Below are positions 10,760-13,485 of a DNA stretch of 41,341 nt, in pieces. Source of the DNA: Balneolaceae bacterium. Lineage in GTDB: Bacteria > Bacteroidota > Rhodothermia > Balneolales > Balneolaceae. Both the position numbers and the translations under genes were made by a program. Positions within the stretch are counted from its first letter, which is position 1. Each line of letters starts with the position of its first letter. Under the pieces are notes generated by a model. The model had not been told where the DNA came from, ran no database searches, and worked only from the letters and a program-made list of their open reading frames with translations. The stretch covers positions 1-41,341 of the forward strand of contig SLOU01000153.1 of NCBI GenBank assembly GCA_007132385.1, given 5' to 3'.

Positions 10760-12031
10760 CTATTCGGAACGGCTTAAATTGGCATCACCGTTTCGGCTCA
10801 ATTCATACTGATTTTTGTAGTCGCGTATAGCCCGGAAGATAGCCGATGCCATGATAGCCTGCCCATATTCACTATTCAGAAATCTGGCCTCATCAGGGTT
10901 TGACAGGAATCCCAATTCTATGAGCACAGCCGGGGTGGAAGCGTGCCAAAGAGCTTCAAGTCCGGCCTGTTTTACCCCTCTTGAACGGCGTTGGGCGCGG
11001 TTTTTGAACTGGTCTTCGATCATGCTTGCAACATGTTCGCTGATTGCCATATTTCCAGCATTGGTCAGTTCATACAACAGAAGTTCTTCTTCACTCAGTT
11101 CAAGAGTACCCCCTCCATTTTCAAGATCTACAACGCTATTTTCCCGTTTCATCACTTCAAGAGCTGATTCGGTTCTTGCGAGTCCGAGGAAAAAAGTTTC
11201 CGTGCCGGAGGCTCTGGGATTGGGAGCTGAATTGATATGGATTGAAACGAAAAGATCTCCTTTTGTCCGTGCAGCTGTTAGTCCTCGCTCACCGAGCGGG
11301 ACGAATTCATCTTCTTCCCGGGTGTAGACAACTTTTACGTCCGGCAGATACTGTTCAATATATTCGCCCAATTTGAGTGTGACGGCAAGTGCAATATCTT
11401 TCTCCATAATGCCAAGTTCACGGTTCATGGTGCCCGGATCGTGTCCTCCGTGTCCGGCATCCAGCACAATGACATTAAATTGCATATCATCCCGCAGCTC
11501 TCTTAACTGCTCATCATCTTCAAAATCAAACTGAGGTAAAGGGTCTGCCTCTGTGTCATCGACCCATGAAATGGGGATGACACCTTCGGTAATACCGGCT
11601 AATTCCGAAGATGTGATTCTTTCAAGCGCTAGTAGCAAGTGAGACCGGTTTTGGTCAGGGTAAACCGAGGTTTTAAAATAATTATCGGAGCCTAAAAACA
11701 GATCAATACCGATCCCGGTATCCAATTTATGAACATCAATTCCCCAGAACGTTTCCGATTCAGGAGGGAGCCTGAGGTCAAGGGTATCAAGTTCGTCTGC
11801 ATATAGTTTCATCTGGATCAGATCGGCAGCAGGTTGCACAACTTTGAAAGAGTCGACCAGCTCTTCAAGATGATATCGGACAACAAATCCCTTGCCGTCG
11901 CTGCGTTCGACCGCTGAAATTCTGGTCAATTCATTTTGAGCGTCAACCGAAGGAACAAACAAAAATGTAATTGCCAGACAGGCTAGTACGGTGACCAAAG
12001 CTGGCCGATAAACGCCTTTTAAACCTATCAT
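10760..12031 (-). CDS. N-acetylmuramoyl-L-alanine amidase (Amidase_3 family)
   Basis: VLDAGHGGHDPGT, SIHINSAPN, LIELGFLSNPDEARFL motifs; N-terminal signal. Confidence 0.93.
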   Translation of the reverse strand: MIGLKGVYRPALVTVLACLAITFLFVPSVDAQNELTRISAVERSDGKGFVVRYHLEELVDSFKVVQPAADLIQMKLYADELDTLDLRLPPESETFWGIDVHKLDTGIGIDLFLGSDNYFKTSVYPDQNRSHLLLALERITSSELAGITEGVIPISWVDDTEADPLPQFDFEDDEQLRELRDDMQFNVIVLDAGHGGHDPGTMNRELGIMEKDIALAVTLKLGEYIEQYLPDVKVVYTREEDEFVPLGERGLTAARTKGDLFVSIHINSAPNPRASGTETFFLGLARTESALEVMKRENSVVDLENGGGTLELSEEELLLYELTNAGNMAISEHVASMIEDQFKNRAQRRSRGVKQAGLEALWHASTPAVLIELGFLSNPDEARFLNSEYGQAIMASAIFRAIRDYKNQYELSRNGDANLSRSE

Positions 12032-12210: not shown

Positions 12211-12239
12211 TTGACAAAATGCTCGTTATGGTTTACAAT
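12211..12239 (+). promoter_or_regulatory. Sigma70-type promoter upstream of the ankyrin gene
   Basis: TTGACA (12211-12216), 17-nt spacer, TACAAT (12234-12239), 48 bp before the ATG. Confidence 0.65.
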
Positions 12240-12270
12240 TAGGGAGCTTATCTTTATTAAAACCATAACG
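12224..12270 (+). repeat. Perfect 11-bp inverted repeat (candidate operator) overlapping the promoter
   Basis: CGTTATGGTTT (12224-12234) and AAACCATAACG (12260-12270), 25-bp spacing. Confidence 0.8.
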
Positions 12271-12287
12271 TAACGGAGATCTCGCTT

Positions 12288-12665
12288 ATGAATGAAGAAT
12301 CCTTTCTGGATGCCGCTGAGAATGGTGATTTTGATACTATCAAACGCATGATTGATAATGGAATGCCGGTGGATACAAGAGATGAACATCAGCGTACAGC
12401 TTTGATGAAAAGTGCCAAATACGGACATATCGATATCGTACAGTTTCTGATAACAGAGGGTGCGGATATCAATCACCGGGATAACCGTGGCACCAATGCC
12501 CTGTATTGGGCGTGCAGCAACGGACATGAAGAGATTGTTCAATTGCTGATCAGTCATCATTGTGATGTTGACGTAATTGACGACAGGGGCTGGAGTGCCA
12601 AAGACCAGGCTGCGACGCAACATCATTCACAGATTGTATCTTTGCTTGAAAAAGCCGGTGCCTAA
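12288..12665 (+). CDS. Ankyrin repeat protein
   Basis: 125 aa, about 3 to 4 ankyrin repeats (DEHQRTALMKSAKYGHIDIVQFLITEGADINHRDNRGTNALYWACSNGHEEIVQLLI). Confidence 0.93.
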   Translation: MNEESFLDAAENGDFDTIKRMIDNGMPVDTRDEHQRTALMKSAKYGHIDIVQFLITEGADINHRDNRGTNALYWACSNGHEEIVQLLISHHCDVDVIDDRGWSAKDQAATQHHSQIVSLLEKAGA

Positions 12666-12798: not shown

Positions 12799-13485
12799 TT
12801 AACTCAGATGTCTTTCGGCTGTCAGGACGGCAATTTGAATCCGGAATGTACTTTCTTTTTCATTATTTGGCAGCTCTTTATTTAGAAACTGATCGCTGAT
12901 ATTGTTGAAAAAAGGATCATTCCTGTAAGATCTGTTTCCCACTTCATCCAAAAATTGTGTGATGGAGCTGTTTGCTTCCTGCCAGTTTCCTGTTGTGTGA
13001 GCTGAAAGGGCATTATGAAATAGCTTTAAAGCTTCATTAAAACCTTTTTCAGATAGAAGTTCTTCAAGCTCACTGGTTTTTTTCCCCGGTGAGGATACTT
13101 TCGGGATGACGTTTTTAAGTTTTCCGTTTTCGAGTTTGTAGCCGTCTCTGCTAAGGCAATTTTTCAGGCGTTCGGCCGGATCACGAAACAATTGGTTTCC
13201 CATAAATGCAGGAATATCGCCTTTGGGCTCTTTAATTTCTGAGGCGATCTGTTCGATAAACTGGTAAATATATTCCTGATTTTTTTGAGGATCTTCACCA
13301 TTTAAATGAATCAGGTGAAGAATAATATGATTAGCAAGCTGAGGACGGTTTAATTCTTTATAGGATATTTTATCTTCAAGTTCAAACCTGAGAATCAGCC
13401 TTTCAATTTTTGAAATGTCCCACTCTTCTAGTAATGTGACTGCTTCAACGAGGGTCTGACGAGAAAATTGATCTGTGGCACTCAT
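12799..13485 (-). CDS. Hypothetical protein, possible N-terminal death-like/effector-associated-type helical domain
   Basis: 228-aa ORF; alpha-helical N-terminus EAVTLLEEWDISKIERLILRFELEDKISYKELNRPQLANHIILHLI; C-terminal LKNCLSRDGYKLENGKL. Confidence 0.7.
   Translation of the reverse strand: MSATDQFSRQTLVEAVTLLEEWDISKIERLILRFELEDKISYKELNRPQLANHIILHLIHLNGEDPQKNQEYIYQFIEQIASEIKEPKGDIPAFMGNQLFRDPAERLKNCLSRDGYKLENGKLKNVIPKVSSPGKKTSELEELLSEKGFNEALKLFHNALSAHTTGNWQEANSSITQFLDEVGNRSYRNDPFFNNISDQFLNKELPNNEKESTFRIQIAVLTAERHLS

Follow-up and report, generated by a model that had tools for sequence, protein, structure and literature searches.

The window analyzed here, a stretch of 41,341 nucleotides from a Balneolaceae bacterium, contains a gene for a small ankyrin-repeat protein, which is flanked on one side by a divergent N-acetylmuramoyl-L-alanine amidase gene and on the other by an open frame matching no Pfam or NCBIfam model (Table 1). 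Orthologues of the ankyrin protein were recovered in 36 of the 92 genomes of the family (host included) and also across the order, and the amidase gene adjoins the ankyrin gene in three other loci too (L006, L039 and L042). When the genome contigs were scanned for the ankyrin protein, the sole match was a remote one, an ankyrin protein at 27%. The region upstream of the gene combines a promoter with a perfect inverted repeat, whose left arm precedes the expected transcription start and whose right arm lies in the expected 5' UTR.

Table 1. Features of the ankyrin gene, its upstream region and its neighbors (window coordinates)
Feature	Position	Strand	Remarks
N-acetylmuramoyl-L-alanine amidase gene, divergent	10760-12031	-	Pfam Amidase_3
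-35 hexamer TTGACA	12211-12216	+	kept at spacing 17 upstream of orthologues in many genera
Promoter spacer	12217-12233		17 bp
Left dyad arm CGTTATGGTTT	12224-12234	+	exact; not found in orthologues
-10 hexamer TACAAT	12234-12239	+	39 aligned promoters
Early 5' UTR segment AGCTTATCT	12245-12253	+	window version of weakly conserved GCYAATCTAAAT; between the dyad arms
Right dyad arm, AAACCATAACG on + strand	12260-12270	-	exact; in 5' UTR; partly common with nearest orthologue
Probable Shine-Dalgarno AACGGAG	12272-12278	+	GGAGG or GAGG in orthologues
125-aa ankyrin-repeat protein	12288-12665	+	Pfam Ank_2, Ank_4, Ank
228-aa open frame adjoining the ankyrin gene	12799-13485	-	no Pfam or NCBIfam match

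The promoter of the ankyrin gene

The two hexamers together match the sigma-70-type consensus at 11 of 12 positions, and TACAAT lies 48 bp before the ankyrin ATG at 12288, exactly as an earlier note on this DNA had described. When the upstream regions of the orthologues were oriented by locus and scored, 38 of 43 (window included) fitted TTGACA-N17-TACAAT with at most two mismatches, as against about 1% of block-shuffled regions in the same search; these regions are not independent, with several genera contributing many species, but represent at least a dozen genera. Spacers other than 17 gave zero or one match among the same 43 regions, placing the conserved spacing within the 16-18 bp typical of sigma-70 promoters. 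In the 39 aligned promoters the initial T and A and the final T of the -10 hexamer are invariant (39/39), with the intervening C, A and A present in 36, 37 and 38 cases respectively. Because the pattern is kept in so many regions across these genera, the promoter is very probably real. No further promoter-like site was found on the + strand between 12000 and 12210.

Counted from the initial T of the -10 hexamer, columns +16 to +18 are moderately conserved in the orthologues and in the window fall between the arms of the repeat. A weakly conserved element, GCYAATCTAAAT, is discernible about 6-18 bp past the -10 hexamer in several genera (window 12245-12256, L010, L011, L013, L015 and L041), a location where the ankyrin transcript is expected to begin. 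The possibility that promoter and early-UTR element form a combination common to other genes was rejected, since a search for the promoter followed by ATCTAA matched in 14 genomes, in 13 of them at the ankyrin-gene promoter itself. The remaining match, at locus L098 (G074:C440:1694-1735), is the sole one to come from a genome that lacks a close ankyrin orthologue.

The earlier note had further suggested that such a promoter would be atypical if the host used Bacteroidetes-type -33/-7 signals. For the host's order it is not atypical, as TTGACA-N17-TAyAAT is conserved before at least two unrelated genes there. The second of these cases is an exbB/tolQ-like operon, for which TTGACA-N17-TATAAT is present in the host as well as three further genomes of the order; the encoded proteins are 74-97% identical to those of the host. 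The operon loci, which come from several families of the order (L099, at G000:C223, L100, L101 and L102), carry the promoter TTGACATTTGATNCAAAATAGTCTATAAT or a sequence near it. Genome-wide, neither the exact full consensus nor TTGAC-N17-19-TATAAT was enriched over a reversed control, and most promoters in these genomes are thus presumably more degenerate than the full consensus. The Bacteroidota-type promoter pattern was likewise not enriched over a reversed control in these genomes, in what is a crude test with a control of differing dinucleotide content. A literature search on promoters in Balneolaceae found no paper.

The inverted repeat: chance rate, conservation and half-sites

The arms of the repeat are perfect over 11 bp, start 36 bp apart and leave 25 bp between them. 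The right arm is the exact reverse complement in the expected 5' UTR that the earlier note had reported. The left arm, which that note took to fill the -35/-10 spacer, is likewise exact in coordinates and sequence, but its final T doubles as the first base of TACAAT; the arm hence extends beyond the spacer, and the promoter constrains part of its sequence. When the window was shuffled 100 times with dinucleotide content preserved, perfect dyads of 11 bp or more numbered on average 0.21, 0.48 and 0.70 for loops of up to 25, 40 and 60 nt, and two such dyads are observed in the window. The second, at 171-200, pairs AAACCCCCGGAA with TTCCGGGGGTTT across a 6-nt loop in a perfect 12-bp hairpin, possibly a terminator. 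From the shuffles, a dyad like that of the ankyrin gene has a chance of P ~0.0019 for any one upstream region of 110 nt, a value that ceases to be notable when such regions are searched by the thousand: extrapolating this per-region value, itself estimated from shuffles of the window, a genome of roughly 2500 genes would be expected to contain a handful of such dyads.

Conservation was judged on orthologues of other genera, the host genus being represented in the set by its one genome. The earlier note had named absence of the repeat from close relatives as a finding that would count against its reading, and the repeat is indeed present in none of the orthologues examined at this level. The exact dyad, allowing a gap of 20-32 bp, is absent from all 128 other genomes searched in the order, and among the other family orthologues the promoter segment matches the reverse-complemented downstream segment exactly over 8 bp at most, and usually over only 4-6 bp. 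Complementarity of each spacer and UTR was also compared with that to the UTRs of other genera; the median permutation p was 0.01 with the window and about 0.12 without it, and judging by these values the signal comes mainly from the window itself. The idea that covariation maintains a diverged dyad from genus to genus was accordingly discarded, the signal not being significant once the window was removed. The orthologue nearest to that of the window, L006 (74% protein identity), has the UTR sequence TAAAACATAAAGTGAGGAG, which is close to the TAAAACCATAACGTAACGGAG of the window, and an unrelated spacer with no left arm; most of the window's right arm thus looks to be inherited from an ancestral UTR, and the left arm to be new.

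Some g4 orthologues possess 8-bp dyads of their own around the -10 hexamer, unrelated in sequence to that of the window and positioned between the -35 hexamer and the early UTR: CACCTGAA/TTCAGGTG in L041 and L046, and GATTGGCA/TGCCAATC in L048.

A genome scan for the half-site, which the earlier note had proposed, recovered it at background frequency. In the host assembly (~71% complete) there are four exact matches, two of which are the dyad itself, versus three for the control; the other two lie inside open frames 311 and 253 codons long, so that no upstream region elsewhere in the host genome carries one. Allowing up to two mismatches, the window contains 14 matches versus 13.95 expected.

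Interpretation of the repeat and comparison with known systems

Taken together, these observations are best explained by an ordinary sigma-70-like promoter driving the ankyrin gene, with a dyad that is coincidental or a recent lineage-specific change in the spacer and most likely has no dedicated function; we would give this reading a probability of about 0.8. A housekeeping (sigma-70-like) holoenzyme would initiate near 12246, the start site and sigma factor being those that the promoter predicts, either constitutively or under general regulation, and translation would proceed from the putative Shine-Dalgarno sequence. The dyad would have arisen by coincidence or recently within the lineage, in promoter spacer free to vary, and would probably be functionless. 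Related bacteria have retained the promoter of this gene and lack the repeat, which is hence most likely due to chance or specific to the species. Against coincidence one may set the placement of perfect arms exactly at the promoter (P ~0.002 for a single region) and the unrelated 8-bp dyads of some g4 orthologues.

The earlier note had favored a two-site operator, with looping or cooperative repression, a reading that the data do not support, the dyad lacking conservation in other genera and the half-site lacking enrichment. A version restricted to the genus or species, in which a repressor on inverted half-sites in spacer and UTR blocks or loops the promoter, is unlikely, although the perfect 11-bp arms do flank the -10 hexamer and the expected start, and the comparison set begins at other genera. 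Two features by which a repressor operator might be recognized are a dyad recurring upstream of orthologues and additional copies of the site before other genes of the host; neither was seen, the former among other-genus orthologues and the 128 genomes of the order. Moreover, the centers of the half-sites are 36 bp apart, or ~3.4 helical turns, which would place them on different faces of the helix. That a genus-specific regulator binds CGTTATGGTTT half-sites on either side of the start, as a recent site at this gene only, seems quite improbable.

The left arm could also have been created by template switching, with the inherited right arm copied into the spacer and no function implied. The perfect identity over 11 bp and the resemblance of the right arm, but not the left, to the UTR of the nearest orthologue are in keeping with such an event; however, the chance rate by itself suffices, and we regard such an event as very unlikely. 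An RNA hairpin from a transcript starting upstream of 12224, which would sequester sequence near the Shine-Dalgarno, is equally hard to credit: an RNA with both arms is predicted to fold at -16.1 kcal/mol (z -2.5), but with the conserved promoter the transcript probably begins past the left arm, so that the arms should not form an ordinary mRNA hairpin, as the earlier note had rightly argued; in addition, the + strand offers no alternative promoter-like site upstream, an RNA family (Rfam) search of the region gave no match, and the dyad is not conserved. The expected transcript from 12246 has no unusual predicted structure (z 0.15).

The comparison illustrates how an inverted repeat may stand out at a promoter and still be coincidental, even where the promoter is deeply conserved, and a promoter kept over so many genera should be useful for working out the rules that govern promoters and start sites in this order. 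With respect to known systems, the locus resembles two-site (palindromic or looping) repressor operators in its inverted repeats around a promoter, but differs in that the dyad is not conserved and lacks other genomic sites or an identified linked regulator. The Bacteroidota -33/-7 promoter has the pattern TTTG ... TAnnTTTG, and the ankyrin gene, with its TTGACA/TACAAT, displays no likeness to it. In contrast, the TTGACA, 17-bp spacer and TACAAT kept across genera are those of a sigma-70-type (RpoD) promoter, from which no difference is evident, the -10 hexamer of the ankyrin gene being consistently TACAAT rather than TATAAT.
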